A stretch of 49,685 nt of DNA from an uncultured Verrucomicrobia subdivision 3 bacterium (lineage in GTDB: Bacteria; Verrucomicrobiota; Verrucomicrobiia; Limisphaerales; UBA8199). Where the stretch lies: assembly GCA_903913865.1 (NCBI GenBank), contig CAIWMU010000150.1:1-49685 (forward strand). The letters run 5' to 3'. The notes under the pieces are model-generated. The model ran no database searches. It was not told the origin of the DNA and was given only the letters and a program-made list of their open reading frames with translations. Of this stretch, positions 2-31,967 are shown one piece after another. Position 1 is the stretch's first letter; each line of letters starts with the position of its first letter. A program made the position numbers and the translations under genes.

Positions 2-145
2 ACCATCTCCATCCAATGGAACGGCGGCGGCCAACTCCAGAAAGCCTCAACCCTCAACGGCCCCTGGATCACCATCACCAACGCCACAACCCCCTTCAAA
101 GCCAATACCTCCGGCAACAGCGGCTACTTCAGGGTGGTTCAGTAG
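2..145 (+). CDS. C-terminal end of a secreted/surface protein (5' end outside window)
   Basis: An open frame enters from the left edge and ends at TAG 143-145, giving 47 residues. The tail has the pattern IQWNGGG..LQ.A..L.GPW....NAT.PF followed by YFRVVQ at the very end. This resembles the C-terminal module ending in FFR(L/V).. that closes many large extracellular proteins of Verrucomicrobiota; this is recognition by pattern, not by alignment. The rest of the protein is upstream and its function cannot be told. The gene is on the same strand as the export cluster that begins 142 nt further on, so it is a possible but unproven substrate of that system. Confidence 0.6.
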   Translation, partial: TISIQWNGGGQLQKASTLNGPWITITNATTPFKANTSGNSGYFRVVQ

Positions 146-287: not shown

Positions 288-2183
288 GTGAACATAGAAT
301 TGCGTTTGATATTGGGATGGGCTTTGGCTGTCTTAGGAGGAGTTTGCTTGGTTCAGGGGCAGGAGTCTGCACCGGGAGGGCAGATTTCCACTCAGACCAC
401 CAATTCGGTTTCGACCCGGCAACCTTCGGCTGCCTCCATCGATGGCCAGACCGGGGACCTCTTTCAGGGAAAAGCTCCTGAGGAGATTTCCCTGAATGGT
501 TTGTTGGGGCGGGTTCTTGAGCGGAACGAGTCTCTGCAATCAAAGATGCTCGAGTTCGAGGCGCACCGTCGCCGATACAGGGCGGAATTTGGTGCGTTCG
601 AGCCGGACCTCTATGGATCCGTTGGCAAAGAGGTCAACAATCGGAAGAATACTGCCGAGCAGCAGGTATCGCTGCTGACCCCGAACTTTCATGAGACCAA
701 CAATGTTTATGAAGGAGGCATTGAAGGGTTGATTCGGACGGGGGCCCGCCTGCGTCTGGGCTACAATCTGCGTGATCTCCAGAACAATCTTCAATCTTTG
801 CGCAGTGCCACCAATGGAGAGTTTCAGAGCTTTTTCGGTCTTTCCGGAGTGCAGCCGCTGCTCAAGAACATTGGGGCAGCGAGTGCCATGGCGGGGATCC
901 GGCTCGCCGCGATATCCAACAAGATCGCCTTTCAGGAATATCGCCGCGGCATGATGAATGTGGTCTCGGCGACGGAGGCGAGTTATTGGAATCTGTTTCT
1001 TGCTCAAGAACAGGTCAGGTTTTTTGTGGATTCCGTCAAGACCGCTGAGGCGATTTTGAAGGATACAAAGGCGCGACTGGAGGCGGGGAAGGGGACCGAG
1101 ATCGAAGTCATGGAGGCTGAGGCGGGATTGAGCTTGAGACGGGCCAAGCTGGAAGAGGCACACCAGAAGCAGTTGGAGACAGCGAATAGAGTTCTTTCCC
1201 TTTATGCTGAGGAAGCCCCCAGGGATGGAGCCAGACTTAGGGTGACCGACGTTCCGAAGATCCGGGCGGAGTCTCCAGACTTCAACAGCCTCAGGCAGAC
1301 CGCCTTCAATCTGAGTCCTGATTACTTGATCGCTGAGGAACGTATTCAGCAGGACCGGGTCAGGCTTGGGTTGGCCAGGAACCAGCGCCTCCCTGAGTTG
1401 AATTTGAAGGGTAGTTATGGGATGAATGGACTCGGTCGCACTCCCGGGATTGCATGGGATGACATTCAAAATCAGGACCAGCCCGCGTGGTTTGTGGGTG
1501 CTGAATTTCGTGTGCCGTTGGCGGGGGGGATACGAGGGCGAAATGATCTGACCGCAAGCCGCCTTCAACTGCAGGCATCCGAACTCTCACTGCGCGGTCT
1601 TGAGACGGAACTCGCCAACTCGATGAATTCAGCTTGGCACAAGATCGGGAGCACCCGCCAGAATATCCGCAGTTACCAAACTTCTGTCCGGTATAATCAG
1701 GCCCTGCTGGCCTCCGCGATGACCCGGTTGGAGGCTGGCAAACTTGAGAGCCGCAAGGTTCTTGAGATTGAGGCTGATCTGCTCCAGACACGTGTTTCGG
1801 AGGTAGAATCCATGGTTCGCTTTGAGTTTGCCTGGATGGAATTGGAACTGATGGAAGGAAGTCTTCTGATGACCCGTGATCTGGAGTTGACCCAGATGGA
1901 GTTGCAGTCGGCGACCTCGAGAATGAGTTCCAGCCGGGTGATAGGAGATTCGGAATACCAGCGGGCCCTTGCCGCCAAGGCTGCCCTGCTCAAGGCGTCG
2001 GACGGCTCGGGGAGATTTGCCGAACTGACTCCCGCTGACAACCATGCAAGGGAGGCGCATCAGGAGTCCCGAATGATCACCATCAAGGCTGAGGTGAAAA
2101 AGGGATTTGAGAAACCAACTCCGAATGAGAAGAACAAGCGGGTTTTTGAGGATCTTGAGAAAGGGGAAGGGAATAGAAAATGA
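288..2183 (+). CDS. TolC-like outer-membrane efflux protein
   Basis: 631 residues. A hydrophobic signal peptide (about residues 4-24, ending near VQGQ) is followed by the two-fold repeat of long amphipathic helices and short strands typical of the TolC/OEP family. Examples are the helical stretches at about 255-305 (KDTKARLEAGKGTEIEVMEA) and 480-530 (ASAMTRLEAGKLESRKVLEI), which are mirror copies of one another. Members form trimeric outer-membrane channels that dock on periplasmic adaptors. The start is GTG 288; an in-frame TGA at 279 excludes anything further upstream. The last ~90 residues form a charged, probably disordered tail that is longer than in classical TolC. The stop overlaps the next gene's start (ATGA), so the adaptor is probably translated in coupling with this gene. 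Confidence 0.85.
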   Translation: MNIELRLILGWALAVLGGVCLVQGQESAPGGQISTQTTNSVSTRQPSAASIDGQTGDLFQGKAPEEISLNGLLGRVLERNESLQSKMLEFEAHRRRYRAEFGAFEPDLYGSVGKEVNNRKNTAEQQVSLLTPNFHETNNVYEGGIEGLIRTGARLRLGYNLRDLQNNLQSLRSATNGEFQSFFGLSGVQPLLKNIGAASAMAGIRLAAISNKIAFQEYRRGMMNVVSATEASYWNLFLAQEQVRFFVDSVKTAEAILKDTKARLEAGKGTEIEVMEAEAGLSLRRAKLEEAHQKQLETANRVLSLYAEEAPRDGARLRVTDVPKIRAESPDFNSLRQTAFNLSPDYLIAEERIQQDRVRLGLARNQRLPELNLKGSYGMNGLGRTPGIAWDDIQNQDQPAWFVGAEFRVPLAGGIRGRNDLTASRLQLQASELSLRGLETELANSMNSAWHKIGSTRQNIRSYQTSVRYNQALLASAMTRLEAGKLESRKVLEIEADLLQTRVSEVESMVRFEFAWMELELMEGSLLMTRDLELTQMELQSATSRMSSSRVIGDSEYQRALAAKAALLKASDGSGRFAELTPADNHAREAHQESRMITIKAEVKKGFEKPTPNEKNKRVFEDLEKGEGNRK

Positions 2184-3016
2184 CCAAGCCGTCCACAGAG
2201 ACAAAACTTACATTCGAAACGTTTTCAGGTTCGTCGGAGTGGAGGATCTTCAGGGCGCATGCTCCCTGCGGACCGGATTCTCTCTACTGTCGTGTGGTCC
2301 GGCTTGTCTTGATGGTGAGCCTCACGATTTTGACAACCACCCCCACTGTGGCGGCGGGGCGCTTGATGGGGATCACAGAGCCTGTTTTTGATGTCCTGCT
2401 GAGTCTTCCTGTGCCCGGAATCGTGGCGAGCATCCACTTGCGCGAGGGGGACACTGTGAAGACCAATCAGGTGATCCTTGAGCTGGATAGCAGACTTGAG
2501 GAGCTGGAAGTGGACCGCAGGAAGCTGGTTCTGGACAATCGAAAATCGGATTGGGAGAGCACACGGACGGTATTCGAAAAGGGGAACTCGGTAAGCCGCG
2601 ATGAGCTGTTGAAGAAGGAAGCGGACTACAAGGTTGCGGTTGCGGAGTATGAGACTGCGGTGGAGCAACTGCGCAGAAGGCATCTGGTTAGTCCCGGGGT
2701 CGGAGTGATTGCTGAATTCAAGCCACACGTGGGAGAATCCTGCTCAGCGTATGAACCGGTTGTGAGAATCGTGGATATCCGCAGGTGTTATTTTGTGAGT
2801 AATGTGGAGTCCCAAATTTCCGCATCTTTCAAGGTTGGCCAAAAAATGGGTGTTGAGATTGAGGATGGCGAGGGAAAGATCCGCATCGATGGATCGGTGG
2901 TTTTCATCTCCCCGGTTGTGGACAGTTCAAGCGGGTTGCAGAAAATAAAGGTCCTGTTTGAGAATCCGGATGGGAAGATTCGACCGGGCCTGTCCGGCAG
3001 GATACTGACGGAGTAG
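2180..3016 (+). CDS. HlyD/RND-type periplasmic adaptor protein
   Basis: 278 residues. An N-terminal hydrophobic segment lies at about residues 38-59 (VVRLVLMVSLTILTTTPTVA). It is followed by a split barrel-sandwich (lipoyl-like) domain (PGIVASIHLREGDTVKTNQV near 75-95), a short coiled-coil hairpin (about 100-155) and a beta-barrel domain ending in IRPGLSGRI, the usual end of membrane-fusion proteins. The role known for this family is to link an inner-membrane pump to a TolC-type channel. The 37 residues before the signal-like segment are unusual, so the true start may be an internal codon near residue 40-45. The annotated ATG 2180 overlaps the stop of the TolC-like gene by 4 nt. Confidence 0.8.
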   Translation: MTKPSTETKLTFETFSGSSEWRIFRAHAPCGPDSLYCRVVRLVLMVSLTILTTTPTVAAGRLMGITEPVFDVLLSLPVPGIVASIHLREGDTVKTNQVILELDSRLEELEVDRRKLVLDNRKSDWESTRTVFEKGNSVSRDELLKKEADYKVAVAEYETAVEQLRRRHLVSPGVGVIAEFKPHVGESCSAYEPVVRIVDIRRCYFVSNVESQISASFKVGQKMGVEIEDGEGKIRIDGSVVFISPVVDSSSGLQKIKVLFENPDGKIRPGLSGRILTE

Positions 3017-3020
3017 CATT

Positions 3021-3104
3021 ATGTCGCAGCAAGATTTGCACATTGATCATCTCATGCCGGAGATTTCCAAAATGAGACAGGACTCGAGGAGGGGTAATGT
3101 CTGA
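3021..3104 (+). CDS. possible 27-residue small ORF between adaptor genes
   Basis: ATG 3021 opens a 27-codon frame ending at TGA 3102-3104. It fills the 80-nt gap between the HlyD-like gene and the GAF/HlyD gene, and its stop overlaps the ATG at 3097. The peptide is hydrophilic and charged (it begins MSQQDLHIDH and ends RRGNV), with no signal peptide or cysteine. The start is 5 nt after the previous stop and has no clear Shine-Dalgarno site. It could be a small peptide linked to the export cluster, a leader that couples translation of the next gene, or chance. Nothing in the sequence decides between these. Confidence 0.25.
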   Translation: MSQQDLHIDHLMPEISKMRQDSRRGNV

Positions 3105-5043
3105 GGAAGCCGCCAAAGGTGACAGTCCGATTGAGTTGGCGCTTGCTGAGCTTTCGCGGTTACAGCAGTTGCCGGGAGGCCCCAAGGAATTCTGGCCCCG
3201 CTACCTCGCTGTTGCACTCGAGCTGACCGGGGCAGACAAAGCTGTCCTCCTGGTGCGGAAGCCGGGTCAGGTGTGGCGTCGTCTGATCGAGTGGCCATCT
3301 GGATCGGCTCCCTCGAAGATGATCACGGTCTTTTTGTCCCAGCTTGACACCGTTGCTTCGCAGGCATCCGGGTCGGGTGGGTTGCTTCTTCCTCTTGATC
3401 CCAAGTCTGCAGCAACCTCCGGCGCCTACCTTCTGGCCACAAAAGTCAACTTGCAGCAGCAGGATGAGTGTGTTCTTGCCATGCTGGTTTGCGAGATGAG
3501 CGAAGCGGTAGCCCGGGAAAGGCTCCTGCGCCTGCGACTCATCGCCGCGACACCGGAAACCTATCAGGGGTTTCAGGGGGGGCGTCAGTCAAAGGCGGAT
3601 GTCGAGAAGTTTGCATCCGTCCTCGATCTGGCAGCAAGTGTCACAGCTGAGAAGAGATTTCTTGCGACGGCAATGGCCTTCTGCAACGGGATGGCAACAC
3701 GCTTCACTTGCGACAAGGTGAGCCTCGGCTGGTTGGAGGGTGGATTTATTCGGTTGAAGGCGATGAGCCATACCGAAAAATTTGACCGACAAATGGCTGC
3801 TGCACAGGGTCTGGAGACGGCGATGGAGGAAACACTGGATCAGGATGATGAAATCCTATGGCCTGCCGTCGATGCTGAGTCACTCGGTGAAAGGCCTCCG
3901 ACCACATCTTCGACATCCTCTGCAGGCGAATTGCCGGGTCAGACAGATGCAGATGGGGCTGCGACATCCGCCATCAATAGGGATCACGCCAGGTATGCAT
4001 TGGATCAAAAAATTCCCTTTCTTTGCTCCCTTCCGGTGCGCAGCGGGGATCATCCGGTGGCTGTGGTTCTGTGTGAACGTCAGGGATCTGCGTTCAGCAG
4101 TTCCGAGCTCCAACAAATGCGGCTCGGATGCGACCTCGTGGCGGCCCGCTTAACTGATCTCAGACATCAGGACTTGTGGTTTGGCGCAAGGTGCGCGGCG
4201 ACTCTGCGTGAGAAAACCTCCCGATTGCTTGGTCCGGAGCATACCTGGGCGAAGGTGGCTGCCTTGGGGATTTCGGCCCTGCTCATCCTTTTGTTTTTCC
4301 TGCGTGTTCCATACCGTGTGGAGGGGAGTTTCACGCTTAGAAGTGATGAACTCAGCTATCTCACCGCACCATACGAGGGGTTCATTGACGAGGTCCTGGT
4401 GCGCCCGGGCGACCATGTCTCATCCAACGCGCCGCTCGTGAGACTCAAGAAGAACGAGCTGGAGCTTGAGGAATCATTTGCGATGGCCGACCTCAACCGC
4501 TACCAGCGCGAGGCTGAGAAGGCTCGTGCAATGCGCGCACTTGCGGAGATGAGGATTGCTGAGGCGATGGCCGAGGAGGCCACTGCGCGATTGGGCACCG
4601 TTCGTTACCGTTTGGCCCATGCAACCATCCGGAGCCCCTTCGCCGGGGTGGTGGTTGAAGGCGACCTCCGGGAGCATCTGGGTGCCCCGGTCAAGACGGC
4701 GGAGGTCATGCTGAAGGTTGCCCGCATCGACACCCTGTATGTGGAGGCCGAGATCAACGAACGGGATATACATGAGATTCTGGGCAGGACCAGCGGGGAG
4801 ATTGCCTTCGTCAGTCAGCCGAAGCTCAAGTTTCCGGTTCGCATCCAGACCGTGGAGCAGGCTGCCATGCCCAAGACTGAAGCCAACGTTTTTCTTGTGC
4901 GCTGCCAGTTGGAGCACGCGATAGAGTCCTGGTGGAGGCCGGGGATGAGCGGCGTGTGCAAGTTGAATGTCGAAAAGCGTTCATTGCTGTGGATTTTGAC
5001 CCACCGCACCATCGACTTTCTGCGTTTGAAACTTTGGTGGTGA
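3097..5043 (+). CDS. GAF-like/HlyD fusion: membrane adaptor with cytoplasmic sensor region
   Basis: 648 residues in two halves. The first ~380 residues look like two GAF-type domains (about 20-150 and 170-365) separated by a low-complexity Ser/Thr/Gly/Asp stretch near 275-305. One transmembrane helix follows (about 387-405, VAALGISALLILLFF). The second half is a HlyD-type adaptor: a barrel-sandwich half (TAPYEGFIDEVLVRPGDHV), an Ala/Glu-rich coiled coil (about 450-515), the second half-motif (ATIRSPFAGVVVEGDL) and a beta-barrel ending in WWRPGMSGVCKL. The predicted topology places GAF inside and the adaptor in the periplasm. A good Shine-Dalgarno AGGAGG (3087-3092) precedes ATG 3097. GAF domains usually bind small ligands, so this part could gate the machine; that is inference. 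Confidence 0.78.
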   Translation: MSEEAAKGDSPIELALAELSRLQQLPGGPKEFWPRYLAVALELTGADKAVLLVRKPGQVWRRLIEWPSGSAPSKMITVFLSQLDTVASQASGSGGLLLPLDPKSAATSGAYLLATKVNLQQQDECVLAMLVCEMSEAVARERLLRLRLIAATPETYQGFQGGRQSKADVEKFASVLDLAASVTAEKRFLATAMAFCNGMATRFTCDKVSLGWLEGGFIRLKAMSHTEKFDRQMAAAQGLETAMEETLDQDDEILWPAVDAESLGERPPTTSSTSSAGELPGQTDADGAATSAINRDHARYALDQKIPFLCSLPVRSGDHPVAVVLCERQGSAFSSSELQQMRLGCDLVAARLTDLRHQDLWFGARCAATLREKTSRLLGPEHTWAKVAALGISALLILLFFLRVPYRVEGSFTLRSDELSYLTAPYEGFIDEVLVRPGDHVSSNAPLVRLKKNELELEESFAMADLNRYQREAEKARAMRALAEMRIAEAMAEEATARLGTVRYRLAHATIRSPFAGVVVEGDLREHLGAPVKTAEVMLKVARIDTLYVEAEINERDIHEILGRTSGEIAFVSQPKLKFPVRIQTVEQAAMPKTEANVFLVRCQLEHAIESWWRPGMSGVCKLNVEKRSLLWILTHRTIDFLRLKLWW

Positions 5044-5046
5044 CCC

Positions 5047-7263
5047 ATGGCCGAACCATCCAGCACGTTCAGTGAATCATGGTACCGGATTGCCGGGCAG
5101 CGGTTGTATCTCAAACCGGGGGTCCGTGTTCAACGGCAGTATTTTCGGGGGGAACGCTGGTTTGTGTTGCAAAACCCATTCAGTAACCAGTACTTCAGAC
5201 TACGCCCGGCCGCCTATGAATTTGTGGGCAGACTCCGTCCTGAGCGAACCGTGGAGGAGGTTTGGCGTGAGTGCGTGTCCCGGTTTCCGGACGATGCCCC
5301 AGGACAGGAGGCAGTGCTCCAACTGCTCGCCCAGCTGAATTTTGCGAACCTCCTTCAATATGAACAGGCAGTTGACACAACACAGCTTTTCGAGCGGTTC
5401 AAGAAGCGCAGGCAAAGAGAAGTCACGGGCTGGCTATTGAACCTGATGTTCATCCGTTTCCCGTTGCTGGATCCGGATCGGTTTCTGGCGACTTTGCTTT
5501 TCCAGAGGGCACGCCCATCCGGTGAGGGATCCAGTGGCACCCAGCAGCCGGTTGACAGGGGTGCCTCCGTTCTTGGGAAGTTGATCGGTCGGGTGGGGGC
5601 CATCCTCTGGCTTGTTGTTGTCGGTTTGGGCATCAAGGTCGTCATGGATCATTGGCCGGAGGTCCGCGATCAAGGGCAGGGGGTGCTTGCGCCAGGCAAT
5701 CTTGTGCTGCTTTATGCCGGTCTGGTTGTGACCAAGACCATCCATGAATTTGGTCACGCGTTTTTCTGTCGCAAATTCGGCGGCGAAGTGCATGTGATGG
5801 GCATCATGTTGATGATCTTCACGCCCGTTCCGTATGTTGACGCCTCATCCAGCTGGGGCTTGCGAAGTCGCTGGCAGCGGGCGATGGTCGGCGCTGCTGG
5901 CATGATTGTGGAACTGTTCTTTGCCGCCATCGCGGCGTTCGTGTGGGTTCGAACATCCCCGGGAACGATCCACAGTCTTGCCTATAACATGATGTTTGTG
6001 GCATCCGTTTCCACGCTGATTTTCAACCTGAATCCCCTCCTGCGTTTTGATGGCTACTACATCCTTTCGGACCTGCTGGAGATACCGAACCTGTCCCAGC
6101 GAGCGAATCAGCAACTGCGCCATCTCTGGGAGCACCATGTTTTCGGGGTTGCGAACTCGACCAGTCCGGCGTTGACCACCCGTGAAGCGGGTTGGCTGGT
6201 TGTGTTTGGCATTGCCAGTGGGATCTACCGGGTGTTTGTTTTTGCAGGAGTTCTTCTGGTGGTGGCAGACCGGTTCCTGTTGCTCGGTATCGTAATGGCG
6301 GTGGTGTGTCTCATTTCATGGATCACGGTTCCGGTTGGAAAGTTTATTTATTATCTGGCCACAAGTCCCCGTCTCGACCGGGTGAGAATCCGGGCCACCG
6401 CCGTGACCTTGGGGCTGCTGGCAGGATTGTTGGGATTGCTCGGCTTGATACCTTTTCCAAATCACTTCAGAGCGCCCGGTGTTTTGCAGGCATCCCAGCG
6501 GACGCAGGTGATCAATGAAGTTGCCGGGATGGTGCAGCGCGTTGTGGCGGTGCCCGGGGGGCCTGTCCACAAAGGTGATCCCCTTCTTCAACTGGAGAGT
6601 CCGGAACTGGCGTTGGACCTGGAGGCGGCCAGAGCCCGGACGGTTGAGGCAGAATCAAGGGTCAGGCAGGCCCTTAGCCGGACCAATGCCGATGTCATGC
6701 CGCTCCGGGCAAAGCTGGAGTCGGCCACACGGCAATTAGACAAACTCAAGGGCGACCGGGATCTGTTGATTGTGAGGGCCCGGCATGATGGGAACTGGGT
6801 GGCGCCGCGCATCGACGAACTAATCGGCCGAAGGATCAACCGGGGCACCCCTCTGGGGTTGGTCGTTAATTCAAATGCCTTCGAGTTTGTTGCCACGGTG
6901 CCTCAAACGGATGCGGATGCCGCTTTTGCCCGCAAGCCCAGAGATGGGGAAGTCCGACTTCGCGGTCAGGAAGGAGAGGTTTTTTCCGTTTCAAAGTGGG
7001 ACGTCGTGGCAGGTGGAAAGCTGACTCTGCCCTCAGCCGCCCTTGGTTGGGCGGCTGGCGGGGAGGTTCCGGTGGCGTCGAATGAACCGGAGAAGGCCAA
7101 GGAGCAGTTTTTTGAAATACATGCCGCTCTGATCTCAAACGCAGCGGTGGCCCAGGTGCATGGACGCTCAGGGACCATCCGGTTTGCCCTGGAGCCTGAG
7201 CCATTGTTGCAGCGATGGCTGCGACGCCTATGGCAGTTGCTTCAAACCCGTTACCAGATCTGA
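5047..7263 (+). CDS. winged-helix/M50 zinc metalloprotease/HlyD multidomain membrane protein
   Basis: 738 residues. The N-terminal ~100 residues (LKPGVRVQRQYFRGERWFVL) resemble the PqqD-like winged-helix segment found in peptide-handling M50 proteins. A multi-pass M50 (site-2 protease) core follows. The zinc motif HEFGH is at 233-237, PVPYVDASS follows it, and NPLLRFDGYY at 329-338 supplies the third metal ligand, Asp335. The protease therefore looks catalytically intact. Further helices run to about residue 475. The C-terminal ~260 residues form a HlyD-like periplasmic domain (INEVAGMVQRVVAVPGGPVH, then a coiled coil and a second half-barrel). The closest described relatives are annotated as putative peptide zinc metalloproteases of the YydH kind. 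The start ATG is 3 nt after the previous stop. Confidence 0.82.
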   Translation: MAEPSSTFSESWYRIAGQRLYLKPGVRVQRQYFRGERWFVLQNPFSNQYFRLRPAAYEFVGRLRPERTVEEVWRECVSRFPDDAPGQEAVLQLLAQLNFANLLQYEQAVDTTQLFERFKKRRQREVTGWLLNLMFIRFPLLDPDRFLATLLFQRARPSGEGSSGTQQPVDRGASVLGKLIGRVGAILWLVVVGLGIKVVMDHWPEVRDQGQGVLAPGNLVLLYAGLVVTKTIHEFGHAFFCRKFGGEVHVMGIMLMIFTPVPYVDASSSWGLRSRWQRAMVGAAGMIVELFFAAIAAFVWVRTSPGTIHSLAYNMMFVASVSTLIFNLNPLLRFDGYYILSDLLEIPNLSQRANQQLRHLWEHHVFGVANSTSPALTTREAGWLVVFGIASGIYRVFVFAGVLLVVADRFLLLGIVMAVVCLISWITVPVGKFIYYLATSPRLDRVRIRATAVTLGLLAGLLGLLGLIPFPNHFRAPGVLQASQRTQVINEVAGMVQRVVAVPGGPVHKGDPLLQLESPELALDLEAARARTVEAESRVRQALSRTNADVMPLRAKLESATRQLDKLKGDRDLLIVRARHDGNWVAPRIDELIGRRINRGTPLGLVVNSNAFEFVATVPQTDADAAFARKPRDGEVRLRGQEGEVFSVSKWDVVAGGKLTLPSAALGWAAGGEVPVASNEPEKAKEQFFEIHAALISNAAVAQVHGRSGTIRFALEPEPLLQRWLRRLWQLLQTRYQI

Positions 7264-10129: not shown

Positions 10130-10291
10130 CGTTGGCAGCCCTGTTTGATTTGCGGTTTGGATTTGGGAGATTCGCTTCACAAAGCATTTGCGAGCCAGGC
10201 TGTTGGCTCCAAAACCCATGCTGTTTTGTAATTGCTGGAAGCCGTGCTTTGGCCTACCAGTATTCATAGCAGGAGATTGTTTAACATAATT
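10130..10291. other. intergenic region between ThuA and lemA with a small hairpin
   Basis: 162 nt without a convincing gene. A 6-bp stem GAGCCA (10192-10197) / TGGCTC (10204-10209) with a 6-nt loop could be a weak terminator or an mRNA end for the upstream cluster; no T-run follows. AGGAG at 10271-10275 is the only Shine-Dalgarno-like sequence before lemA, but it lies 16 nt from ATG 10292, further than usual. Confidence 0.3.
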
Positions 10292-10888
10292 ATGAATCCG
10301 ATTCTACTTTTGGTAATATTGGCGGTTCCGGTGATCCTCGCCTTTCTTTGGGCCGTGGGTGCCTACAACGGTCTTGTGACACTTCGCAACCGGTTCAAGA
10401 ATGCATTCGCACAGATTGATGTTCAGCTGAAGCGCCGCTACGACCTGATCCCTAATCTCGTTGAGACGGCAAAAGGCTACATGAAGCACGAACGTGGCAC
10501 GCTTGAGGCCGTTATCTCGGCCCGGAACGCCGCGTCGTCCGCCCAGTCCCGCGCCGCCCAGATTCCCGGAGATCCCGGGGCGATGAAGGAGTTGGCAGGA
10601 GCTGAGGCTGCCCTCACAGGAACGCTGGGACGCCTGTTCGCTCTTGCAGAGGCCTATCCCGATTTGAAGGCCAACACGACCATGAACGGACTCATGGAAG
10701 AGTTGACATCCACCGAGAACAAAGTTTCCTTCGCCCGGCAGTCCTATAACGATGCCGTCATGCAGTATAATACGGGGAGGGAGTTGTTTCCGACCAACCT
10801 GGTCGCGGGTGCCTTCAATTTCACTGCAGCAGAGTTGTTTGTCGTGGAACGGCCGGAGGAAAAGCAGGCACCCAAGGTATCCTTTTGA
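10292..10888 (+). CDS. lemA: LemA family membrane protein
   Basis: 198 residues with one N-terminal transmembrane helix (about 4-25), followed by the helical LemA domain. Recognisable are AYNGLVTLRNRFKNAFAQID, then LKRRYDLIPNLVETAKGYMK and AFNFTAAELFVVE near the end. The N-terminus is expected outside or periplasmic and short, with a long helical bundle. The function of LemA is not well defined; in bacteria it is commonly encoded next to an HtpX-type M48 protease, and that is the arrangement here (100 nt apart, same strand). ATG 10292 is preferred over the upstream in-frame codon at 10232 because it starts directly at the membrane helix. Confidence 0.9.
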   Translation: MNPILLLVILAVPVILAFLWAVGAYNGLVTLRNRFKNAFAQIDVQLKRRYDLIPNLVETAKGYMKHERGTLEAVISARNAASSAQSRAAQIPGDPGAMKELAGAEAALTGTLGRLFALAEAYPDLKANTTMNGLMEELTSTENKVSFARQSYNDAVMQYNTGRELFPTNLVAGAFNFTAAELFVVERPEEKQAPKVSF

Positions 10889-10988
10889 TCTCAGGACTCG
10901 TTCTACGATCCGTCTGTTGGGGCAGTGGCTGTTCTTAAGGCCCCCCAACGAAGCACATTGCAAAGAGGTTTGATCAGTTCCAGCATTC

Positions 10989-12974
10989 ATGTCCATGGAC
11001 TTCTTCAAACGTCAGGACGACTCGCGGCGCAACACTAAGTGGCTCGTGTGCTACTTCGGTCTCGGGGTCGCAGCGGTTACCGTCTGCATTTACCTGGTCT
11101 GTGTTGTCGCGTTCAGTGGGGTTTCCCGTGATCGCCGCCACCGTTATGCCGAGGCCCAACCGATTCAACTCTGGAGACCGGAGCTATTTCTTTGGGTCAG
11201 TGGCCTGACGGTGACTGTCATCGGCATCGCCAGCTTCGCAAAGATTGCGGAGCTTTCCCAGGGGGGCGGGGCGGTTGCCTCCAGCCTTGGTGGACGTCTA
11301 GTAAATTCAGGAACGACCGACCCGCATGAGCGTAAGTTACTCAATATTGTTGAGGAAATGGCGATCGCCTCCGGCATACCGGTTCCCCAGGTTTATGTCC
11401 TCCCCTCAGAGGATGGGATCAACGCCTTCGCTGCCGGAAACTCCCCCAGTGATGCTGCCGTGGCTGTGACTTCAGGGGCACTGCGTGTCCTGTCGAGGGA
11501 TGAGTTGCAGGGGGTCATTGCCCACGAATTCAGTCATATTCTGAATGGGGACATGCGGTTGAACCTGCGCCTGATGGGGGTCGTTTTCGGGATCATGTGC
11601 ATCGCCGTCATTGGCCGTATTCTTCTGGAGGTTCGTTCCGGTGGAAAAGACAAGAATCCTCTGCCATTTGTCGGTCTTGCGCTCCTGATCATCGGCTGGC
11701 TTGGAGTCTTTTTTGGACGGTTGATCCAGGCCGGCGTAAGCAGGCAGCGGGAGTTTCTGGCGGATGCCTCCGCAGTGCAGTTCACGCGCAACCCGCTCGG
11801 GTTGGCAGGCGCATTGAAGAAGATCGGCGGCTGGAGCAGTGGTTCCCGCGTCAACAGTCCACATGCCGACGAGGCATGCCATCTGTTTTTTGGTGGTGGC
11901 AGGGGATCATCCCTCTTCGGGTTCATGGACACTCATCCTCCCCTTGAGGCTCGGATCAAGGCTCTCGACCCGGAGTTTAACGGTGTCTTTGAAAAAGCCT
12001 CTGCTTCCCGTGAAGAAACCGGGCAGGTCCATGCAAAGCCTGGCAGCAGCAAGGTTCAGCAGCTCTTTCAGGGTTCGAATCGGTCCACTGCCAATACCCT
12101 TGCCGGATCCAAAGTTCCCAACACCCCACCTGTGATCGTGGCCAATGGGCTGTTCTCCAGCGTGGGCAATCCTGAGTTCTCCCATCTCCGGTTTGCAGCC
12201 CGGTTGCAGGGGGAGATGTCTCCGTTGCTGCGTTCAGAGGTTCGGGATTCCCTTGGAGCCGCGTCCCTTACTTATGCACTCCTTCTCAGTGAGGATGCAG
12301 GGATCAGGTCGATCCAGCTGCAAAGGCTTAAGGAAATCTCTGGCCCTGAGGCGCTTGCTGAGACGGAGCGGCTGCAGGAGGAAGTCTCGGCGCTGGCTGC
12401 CAACACCAAATTGCCGCTTGTGGATCTTGCGGTTCCGGCCCTTCGCCTGATGTCAAAGCCGCAGTTTGACGTGTTCGTCCAAACGATGGCAGCGTTGATC
12501 GAGGCAGATGAACAAGTCGATCTGTTCGAGTTCATGCTCCAGAAGATGGTTGTCCGCCACGTTCAGCCGCACTTCGATCAACAGTCGCGTGCGGTCATCG
12601 AGTTTTACGCCCTGCGTCCACTCGTTCGTGAATGCGGAGTGATTCTTTCGGCGTTGGCATATGCGGGACAGGGTGGACTTGACAACGTATCCAGCGCCTT
12701 CCAACGTGGCGCCGAGACGATCAGCCAGGCCTCGCGTGAGTCGTTGTTTCTTGAGGACAGGGAGAACTGTGAATTGACCCACATCGATCAGGCTTTGAAC
12801 CGCCTCTCGCGAGCGGTTCCGCAGATTCGCAAGCTGGCGTTGCAAGCCTGTATGATGACAGTGGCGGCAGATGGGGTTGTGACGGAACTTGAGGCCGAGT
12901 TGCTCCGCGCCATCGCCGATACCATTGATTGTCCGCTCCCGCCTGCCTTCACCGGGTCGTCTGAGGAAGTCTGA
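10989..12974 (+). CDS. M48 (HtpX-like) zinc metalloprotease with long C-terminal TerB-like region
   Basis: 661 residues. Two N-terminal transmembrane helices (about 20-42 and 60-85) are followed by the M48 catalytic domain, with HEFSH at 179-183 and the downstream zinc ligand in SRQREFLADASAVQF. Two more helices lie between these motifs. This is the HtpX topology, in which the protease faces the cytoplasm and degrades damaged membrane proteins. HtpX is normally about 290-330 residues; here another ~330 follow, including a low-complexity linker (about 335-375) and, near the C-terminus, a TerB-like acidic helical motif (MMTVAADGVVTELEAELLRA). The extension may bind metal or a partner protein; its role is unknown. 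LemA lies directly upstream. ATG 10989 is followed by a second ATG at 10995. Confidence 0.85.
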   Translation: MSMDFFKRQDDSRRNTKWLVCYFGLGVAAVTVCIYLVCVVAFSGVSRDRRHRYAEAQPIQLWRPELFLWVSGLTVTVIGIASFAKIAELSQGGGAVASSLGGRLVNSGTTDPHERKLLNIVEEMAIASGIPVPQVYVLPSEDGINAFAAGNSPSDAAVAVTSGALRVLSRDELQGVIAHEFSHILNGDMRLNLRLMGVVFGIMCIAVIGRILLEVRSGGKDKNPLPFVGLALLIIGWLGVFFGRLIQAGVSRQREFLADASAVQFTRNPLGLAGALKKIGGWSSGSRVNSPHADEACHLFFGGGRGSSLFGFMDTHPPLEARIKALDPEFNGVFEKASASREETGQVHAKPGSSKVQQLFQGSNRSTANTLAGSKVPNTPPVIVANGLFSSVGNPEFSHLRFAARLQGEMSPLLRSEVRDSLGAASLTYALLLSEDAGIRSIQLQRLKEISGPEALAETERLQEEVSALAANTKLPLVDLAVPALRLMSKPQFDVFVQTMAALIEADEQVDLFEFMLQKMVVRHVQPHFDQQSRAVIEFYALRPLVRECGVILSALAYAGQGGLDNVSSAFQRGAETISQASRESLFLEDRENCELTHIDQALNRLSRAVPQIRKLALQACMMTVAADGVVTELEAELLRAIADTIDCPLPPAFTGSSEEV

Positions 12975-30755: not shown

Positions 30756-31967
30756 CTAACGCCCGCGCGTGAGACTTTGGACGGCGCTCATGATCTCCTT
30801 GTCGGCGCGGACAGCCTCCCAATTATAGATGCAAAGGTAGCGGCAGTTGGGTTGTGCCAGTGTGTTGGCCATGGCATCGCGCCATGGATCGAGTTTTCGG
30901 GGACCCTGATATAACCACTCCACCGCAGCCCAATAAGGGGCATCGCTCCGTTTCAGGGCGGCTTGAACTCCGGCGTCTTTTGAGGGGTCAGCAGCGTGCT
31001 GGTAAAAGCTCCACCCCGGACAACTGAAGGCGTTTGTGCCGGAGTGGTAAAGCATTTCCCCGCTCTTCCATCCTGCGATGTGTGTAAACAAACGATCCCG
31101 GGGGACGCCGAGTTCTCCAGCCAGACGGCAGAGGTCAAACAGGTGCCTGCGCACGACTTCAGCCAGATCGGCCTCCTGAATCTTCCCATCGGTCCGGATG
31201 CCCGCAGTCTTAACGGCAGCATACCCAATCTGTGCCACCCCGCGTGCCGGGAGTTCCGAGGCAGCCAATCCACCGGTTGGATCGCTGCTTGCAGGATGGT
31301 CGAGCATTTCGTTCCCGTGAGGGTAGTGCCATGCATTCACCCCGATTGAGGATTCCCACCCCAACTTGATACCAACGAGCAGGTGCTTCCTGTTTGCGGG
31401 CAGTTTTTTCCACCAATTGAGCACAAGCGGAATTAGCACCCGCATTTCCTCGTGGACGGCACCCCGGTATGCCCGGCTCATCAGGTTCGGCGGGGGGAGA
31501 ACCCGGATCTGGCTGCCCCAGTTTCGCCAGGCGATTTTGATTGCATCAGCCTGGGACCAACTCGTCCATTCGACATTCGTCCGGTTATGATCCGAGTAAC
31601 CGGGACGGTTGGTATCCCACCAGTTCCACAAATCAGGGCGCCCGCCCCACCAGTTTTCGCCGTCGAGCTGGACGACGATGGGGACATTCATCTCGCTGGA
31701 GCGATCAAGAAACAGCTTCAGGTCGGCCTCAATTTCAGGGCGTGCCTTCGCCAGATAACTGAAAATCAACCCGACCCCTGCTGCCACGGGGGAATCCTGT
31801 CCGTCCTGTCGCTGCTGATGGATGTAATCAAAAGCATCGGTGCCATTTCCCGAGCTGATGTTAAAAATAATGAACTGCTTCGGCTCGGCTACGGAATTGT
31901 GGGAGAAGAAGCAGAGAATAAGCAGGATCAGGAGGGTGGCCGGGAGTTTTTCAAGGTTGTCGAGCAT
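30756..31967 (-). CDS. secreted protein resembling a TIM-barrel glycosidase
   Basis: 403 residues. A Sec signal peptide (LPATLLILLILCFFSHNSVA) leads into a sequence with the alternation of strands and helices of a (beta/alpha)8 barrel. Notable stretches are IVVQLDGENWWGGRPDLWNW, EEMRVLIPLVLNWWKKLPAN, HLLVGIKLGWESSIGVNAWH, and a C-terminal CRYLCIYNWEAVRADKEIM that has the Asn-Trp-Glu motif often found at active-site strand ends. The family is not recognised; a retaining or inverting hydrolase is only inferred. It is in the minus-strand island 126 nt after the sulfatase. ATG 31967 was chosen because it gives a typical signal peptide; the 63-nt in-frame extension to 32030 would mask it. Confidence 0.6.
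   Translation of the reverse strand: MLDNLEKLPATLLILLILCFFSHNSVAEPKQFIIFNISSGNGTDAFDYIHQQRQDGQDSPVAAGVGLIFSYLAKARPEIEADLKLFLDRSSEMNVPIVVQLDGENWWGGRPDLWNWWDTNRPGYSDHNRTNVEWTSWSQADAIKIAWRNWGSQIRVLPPPNLMSRAYRGAVHEEMRVLIPLVLNWWKKLPANRKHLLVGIKLGWESSIGVNAWHYPHGNEMLDHPASSDPTGGLAASELPARGVAQIGYAAVKTAGIRTDGKIQEADLAEVVRRHLFDLCRLAGELGVPRDRLFTHIAGWKSGEMLYHSGTNAFSCPGWSFYQHAADPSKDAGVQAALKRSDAPYWAAVEWLYQGPRKLDPWRDAMANTLAQPNCRYLCIYNWEAVRADKEIMSAVQSLTRGR

Follow-up and report, generated by a model that had tools for sequence, protein, structure and literature searches.

The gene at positions 5047 to 7263 of the window, as we call the whole 49,685-nucleotide stretch analysed here from an uncultured Verrucomicrobia subdivision 3 bacterium, is the fourth in a five-gene operon encoding a TolC-family channel, a periplasmic adaptor, a GAF-adaptor, a protease-adaptor and a truncated SecA-like ATPase (Table 1). 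On the evidence of sequence profiles and predicted structures, its product is a membrane protein that joins, in one chain, a domain of the leader-peptide-binding type to an intramembrane zinc protease and an adaptor for export. The ORF tail left at the contig edge upstream of the operon is possibly, with some uncertainty, the end of an exported protein, and a LemA and M48 protease pair lies downstream (10232-12974).

Table 1. Features of the operon and of the protease-adaptor gene, in window coordinates
Feature	Coordinates	Strand	Basis
ORF tail truncated at the contig edge, C-terminal 47 codons, immediately before TolC	2..145	+	six-frame translation, first 420 bases
TolC-family outer-membrane channel	288..2183	+	Pfam OEP 1.3e-35
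Periplasmic adaptor (RND_mfp/HlyD)	2180..3016	+	TIGR01730 5.2e-34, over cut-off
GAF-like N-terminus with HlyD adaptor	3097..5043	+	HlyD_D23 2.4e-16; GAF 0.0058, under cut-off
RRE/PqqD-like domain, M50 site-2 protease and HlyD adaptor, 738 aa	5047..7263	+	single open frame, ATG to stop
RRE/PqqD-like winged-helix domain, residues 20-105	5104..5361	+	profile matches and predicted fold
HEFGH zinc-binding motif, residues 233-237	5743..5757	+	H233, E234 and H237 invariant, 121/121 rows
Asp335, third zinc ligand	6049..6051	+	invariant in 121/121 rows
HlyD/MacA-type adaptor region, residues 470-738	6454..7260	+	structural match
SecA-like ATPase, 688 aa	7267..9333	+	SecA_DEAD 9.8e-90 (Pfam)

Pfam models for the protease (Peptidase_M50, residues 224-301, E 1.9e-8) and the adaptor (HlyD_3, residues 492-566, E 3.9e-5, 24.8 bits with the cut-off at 22.2) are matched over their cut-offs, and PqqD (residues 40-102, E 0.0015) reaches 19.3 bits, below its cut-off of 23.4, with the 738-aa protein taken alone. 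Among homologous N-termini, 39 of 66 match PqqD at E ≤ 0.01, the best at 2.4e-9. The closest curated model for the protease part (NCBIfam) is that of the daptide intramembrane metalloprotease, NF041824, at E 2.9e-46 and 158.3 bits, short of its 300-bit cut-off, and the YydH/LiaK RiPP proteases are also among the closest curated families. The domain order proposed in an earlier note on this DNA, a PqqD-like N-terminus followed by a site-2 protease and a HlyD-type C-terminus, holds in Pfam profiles and in AlphaFold models for all three folds. Elsewhere in the same genome, a 149-aa frame (G000 contig C160, 15900-16094; L074) matches PqqD more strongly, at 45.3 bits.

The AlphaFold2 model of the full-length protein has a mean pLDDT of 92.6, and that of the N-terminal 118 residues alone, at pLDDT 83.7, shows the strand-strand-strand-helix-helix-helix order of RRE/PqqD-like winged helices. 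Its best five PDB matches in Foldseek are leader-bound chains of TbiB1, the leader-binding protein of a lasso peptide, at E values of only 0.027-0.18 and probabilities of 0.97-1.00. In VIA-align the model superposes on a lasso B1 protein (Z 8.8, 3.0 Å, 84 residues aligned), on TbiB1 (Z 8.6, 3.2 Å, 87 aligned) and on PqqD itself (Z 7.9, 2.5 Å, 87 aligned), the last being the comparison that the earlier note had called for, and at least 23 of the 50 entries in the VIA-align list are RRE-bearing RiPP proteins as judged by their titles. Winged-helix parts of GdmN score Z 9.2-9.5, tying with or beating the RREs, and since the RRE scores are themselves modest, the comparison supports the fold class and does not by itself prove function. 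Fold order, Foldseek and VIA-align thus agree that the first 100 residues are predicted to be PqqD-like, and assignment of the N-terminus to the RRE/PqqD-like fold class is supported. RREs bind leaders along the third strand of the wing and the third helix. The most conserved RRE-like elements in the alignment are the third wing strand (residues 48-52, with Arg51), the third long helix (87-99) and a short pre-helix (12-15). At the other end of the predicted model, residues 471-716 match MacA (Z 16.2, 3.1 Å, 218 aligned), and the C-terminal part also resembles MexA and AcrA.

The protease domain has the hallmarks of M50 site-2 proteases, an HExxH motif and a distant Asp within a multi-helix membrane core, and residues 214-347 of the predicted model match RseP (7w6y; Z 10.3, 3.3 Å, 131 aligned). 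That HEFGH (233-237) and Asp335 are intact had been noticed before; H233, E234, H237 and D335 prove to be identical in 22/22, 78/78 and 121/121 rows of three alignments, at least two loci (L032/L080 and L036/L100) being counted twice in the largest, and the zinc ligands are accordingly general among the homologues aligned.

The ATPase encoded next to the protease-adaptor retains the motor domains of SecA, for nucleotide binding and preprotein crosslinking. The part from residue 69 to 677 can be aligned with positions 19-606 of a SecA chain that has 783 residues; since the alignment stops there, the greater part of the helical scaffold and wing is absent. Of 83 complete SecA-like ORFs, no more than 71 contain TGEGKT exactly. 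Elsewhere the genome has a longer SecA-type gene, with a frame of 1053 aa. A Pfam scan of nine locus proteins found no ABC transporter among them.

We annotated 120 homologous loci, 40 from the phylum of the window and 80 named loci from many phyla, among which the nearest relatives are Verrucomicrobia. Operon conservation was assessed in 63 loci, a few of them duplicated, that have an M50 domain of at least 33% identity and enough contig; in these, a SecA-like gene is found nearby in 57, GAF-HlyD in 61, the adaptor in 49 and TolC in 44. Where the SecA-like and M50-HlyD genes lie on one strand, the former follows immediately 3' of the latter in 85 of 87 loci. A SecA-like gene is near only 1 of 17 more distant loci; L052, L057, L064, L068 and other distant loci carry M50-HlyD, adaptors and often TolC with no SecA-like ATPase nearby. 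In one contig, annotated twice, an 863-aa ORF stands between the GAF-HlyD and M50-HlyD genes (L032:5228-7819, identical to L080:7052-9643). A conserved upstream substrate gene was considered and rejected, as the upstream neighbours differ among close relatives.

Beside many of these operons are genes for acidic proteins of more than 1000 aa that are almost free of cysteine. The N-termini of 8 of 10 such neighbours tested match the LEPR-XLL model (NF012209), both non-matching ones being from loci lacking SecA, and share the leader pattern F-x-hydrophobic-E-x-L-E-x-R-x-L-L-S-A. A regular expression for this leader, applied to the first 130 aa, finds it in 23 of the 52 giant neighbours, compared with 11 of 552 other ORFs and 1 of 451 ORFs belonging to the operon. 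The leader-bearing giants contain 0.93 Cys per 1000 aa compared with 7.74 for the operon proteins, and the longest LEPR-XLL open frame spans 20,466 aa. Pfam domains were identified in two of five large neighbours scanned, one a DUF4347 protein and one an NHL protein. DUF4347 lies near the N-terminus of the protein at L044:1-4295, and by similarity the large proteins of L046, L059, L066, L068 and L113 have a DUF4347 or DUF4347-like region there too.

The occurrence of these proteins follows that of the machine. In a sample of 288 genomes of the window's phylum, LEPR-XLL (E<1e-3) is present in 17/19 genomes with a close M50-HlyD homologue, close and distant being divided at a score of about 330 bits of our choosing, versus 2/269 others (Fisher 2.6e-23, with genomes taken as independent and shared ancestry uncorrected, as in all our co-occurrence counts). 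One of the two exceptions has a distant M50-HlyD (G217) and the other only a weak partial LEPR-XLL match (G119); at the looser curated NF012209 cut-off the counts are 17/19 versus 10/269. A second sample comprised 300 genomes of the order to which the genome of L137 (Burkholderiaceae) belongs. Here 28/32 genomes with a close homologue (E<1e-55, our setting) have LEPR-XLL versus 11/268 (E ≤ 0.01; 2.5e-26), and taking any M50-HlyD at E ≤ 1e-15 the figures are 36/54 versus 3/246, the LEPR-XLL frames in those three genomes being only 23, 50 and 452 aa long. Of all 98 LEPR-XLL matches in this order, 95 fall in genomes with the protease-adaptor, and 24 of these 95 lie within 30 kb of it where 2.05 are expected; the median open frame is 5463 aa. 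LEPR-XLL also exceeds the cut-off in 44 of the 50 genomes checked from the 80 named loci. The system occurs without a LEPR-XLL match in 4/32 genomes of the order and 2/19 of the phylum. As a control, HlyB-type ABC transporters over cut-off are weak predictors (LEPR-XLL in 9/31 versus 30/269 genomes, p 0.01), and a general link between type 1 secretion and LEPR-XLL was set aside on this ground. For distant homologues, most of which lack SecA, there is no clear enrichment in the phylum (4/44 versus 6/225, p 0.06), and there is enrichment in the Burkholderiaceae order (8/22 versus 3/246). The co-occurrence of a machine with a shared N-terminal tag suggests both what is exported and how the cargo is recognised, and LEPR-XLL proteins, often thousands of residues long, are the likely cargo of the close-homologue clade.

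We thus posit, as a reading that is on balance probable, that a type-1-like export machine for LEPR-XLL giants, operating with no ABC transporter, has this protein as its core in the inner membrane. The cytosolic RRE/PqqD-like domain would catch the N-terminal LEPR-XLL leader of the cargo, at which the M50 domain would cut or gate, and the adjacent truncated SecA-like ATPase might provide the force, with the HlyD part, the two further adaptors and TolC carrying the chain out. The invariant catalytic residues, the conserved third strand and helix, the structure of the operon and the genome statistics support this mechanism, in which leader binding, cleavage, energy source and outward direction are proposed steps. 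If the machine does export giants, the LEPR-XLL tag would be a readable signal and the protease and motor testable parts, and leader recognition known from peptide natural products would have been reused for giant proteins.

Whether the organism of the window itself has LEPR-XLL-type cargo is a more conditional matter. Its own draft genome gave 0 matches to NF012209 at E ≤ 1, although LEPR-XLL is present in 17 of the 18 further genomes of the phylum that encode close orthologues, and 0 of 13 genomes of its family, itself included, match at E ≤ 0.01, its own being the one of the 13 that was examined for the operon. A leader profile that we built (A3) gave a best E of 0.30 in this genome, similar to controls. 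Applied to 11 system-bearing genomes without an NF012209 match, it recovered a real match only in G086 (1.2e-5; best E of 0.03 or worse in ten control genomes), and the attempted rescue of LEPR-XLL-negative genomes failed save for that one. The assembly is a draft of 267 contigs and an ORF runs off the edge upstream of TolC, so a repeat-rich gene may have been missed; another leader or a RiPP-like cargo in this species is just as conceivable.

The latter would make the protein a maturation and export factor for a small ribosomal peptide in the window's organism, an explanation that we regard as unlikely. It would fit the kinship with the daptide and YydH/LiaK RiPP proteases, the fusion of an RRE to a site-2 protease being a RiPP architecture (PMC10036551), and the failure of the LEPR-XLL search to find a giant cargo in this genome. 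Relatives lend it some weight as well, since small proteins (114-176 aa) with the leader F-E-x-E-x-L-E-S-R-x-L-F-A-A accompany distant homologues at L051:1932-5278, L056:2102-2446 and L062:18559-19089. In L051 the small leader-bearing protein has a radical-SAM/SPASM protein, an ATPase-like fragment and a free PqqD beside it, and with the radical-SAM protein and the PqqD this locus is probably a RiPP cluster associated with M50-HlyD. Large proteins of two distant SecA-less loci, L059 and L066, carry a further leader variant, Y-Q-L-E-[ED]-R-I-L-F-D. Against a RiPP product here stand the close orthologues, which accompany very large proteins, the lack of a modifying enzyme among the nine locus proteins scanned, and the lack of a leader-motif precursor in the window, where a regular-expression search for short leader-bearing precursors matched only two unrelated frames, one inside the M48 gene on the same strand and one of 77 codons at 30962. 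The search for short leader-like ORFs recommended in the earlier note was productive in distant relatives and not in the window. Its suggestion that the protein might recognise, cut and pass on a peptide fits the scheme proposed here and has precedent in RRE-site-2 protease fusions, with the amendment that the likely cargo of the clade is giant LEPR-XLL proteins instead of a peptide.

It is also conceivable that the SecA-like ATPase still works with SecYEG, that LEPR-XLL proteins pass the inner membrane by way of Sec, and that the protease-adaptor, together with the other adaptors and TolC, acts only afterwards, the protease freeing a leader held in the membrane. The retained nucleotide-binding and preprotein-crosslinking domains would suit such a role, as would the longer SecA-type gene elsewhere in the genome. 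We consider it improbable given that the ATPase has lost most of the scaffold and wing and that, in the leaders examined, the motif does not lie in an extended hydrophobic segment.

M50 proteases with regulatory roles exist, RseP being an example. That the protein is such a protease, sensing the state of the envelope and cutting a regulator or adaptor with HlyD and RRE parts serving for docking, would accord with its fold match to RseP and the GAF-like partner encoded alongside, and is very unlikely in view of the stable coupling of adaptors and ATPase to M50-HlyD across loci and of how strongly the system is tied to very large proteins that carry the leader.

Export of LEPR-XLL giants thus remains our preferred reading, and it could be taken further. 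More tentatively, the operon might represent a secretion system in its own right, derived by converting RiPP-type machinery to protein export, the fusion protein replacing the ABC transporter, LEPR-XLL serving as a cleavable signal and a SecA-derived motor operating without SecYEG. If so, the distant relatives with small variant-leader precursors, radical-SAM proteins and PqqD would be an evolutionary bridge to RiPP pathways.

The proposed machine resembles type 1 secretion (HlyB-HlyD-TolC) in its TolC, HlyD-type adaptors and large cargo, and differs in that the nine locus proteins include a SecA-like ATPase and an M50 protease where an ABC transporter would be expected, and in that the candidate signal is N-terminal. 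The SecA translocase has a complete helical scaffold and wing, most of which is absent from the ATPase here. The published precedent for a site-2 protease with an RRE at its N-terminus comes from daptide biosynthesis (PMC10036551), whose protease is both the best curated match and likewise an RRE-S2P fusion; in the available part of that paper no HlyD part and no SecA-like or TolC partner is named, and the daptide cargo is a small peptide. The M50 protease EpeP/YydH of Bacillus subtilis is thought to cleave and export its epipeptide (PMC10885120), again a small peptide, and the part of that source consulted names no RRE or HlyD fusion. A search confined to open-access papers found no published export route for LEPR-XLL proteins. 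The closest precedent is the work of Kamneva, Poudel and Ward (2015), who described the same operon as a secondary SecA_DEAD or T1SS-like module (PMC4452313), so that membership in an operon with a SecA-derived ATPase, absent from the earlier note, was already published. Their module, reported from the same phyla, comprises SecA_DEAD without most of the wing-scaffold, M50+HlyD, GAF+HlyD, HlyD and sometimes OEP, and the locus studied here likewise has a wing-scaffold-poor SecA_DEAD beside M50-HlyD and GAF-HlyD. The authors propose SecA_DEAD as the ATPase and M50 as the pore; none of the terms PqqD, LEPR, zinc and adhesin occurs in the text, and the cargo is unnamed there. New relative to that report are the RRE-like fold, the invariant zinc site and the link to LEPR-XLL, and should the machine export LEPR-XLL giants, a published operon of unknown purpose would gain a function.
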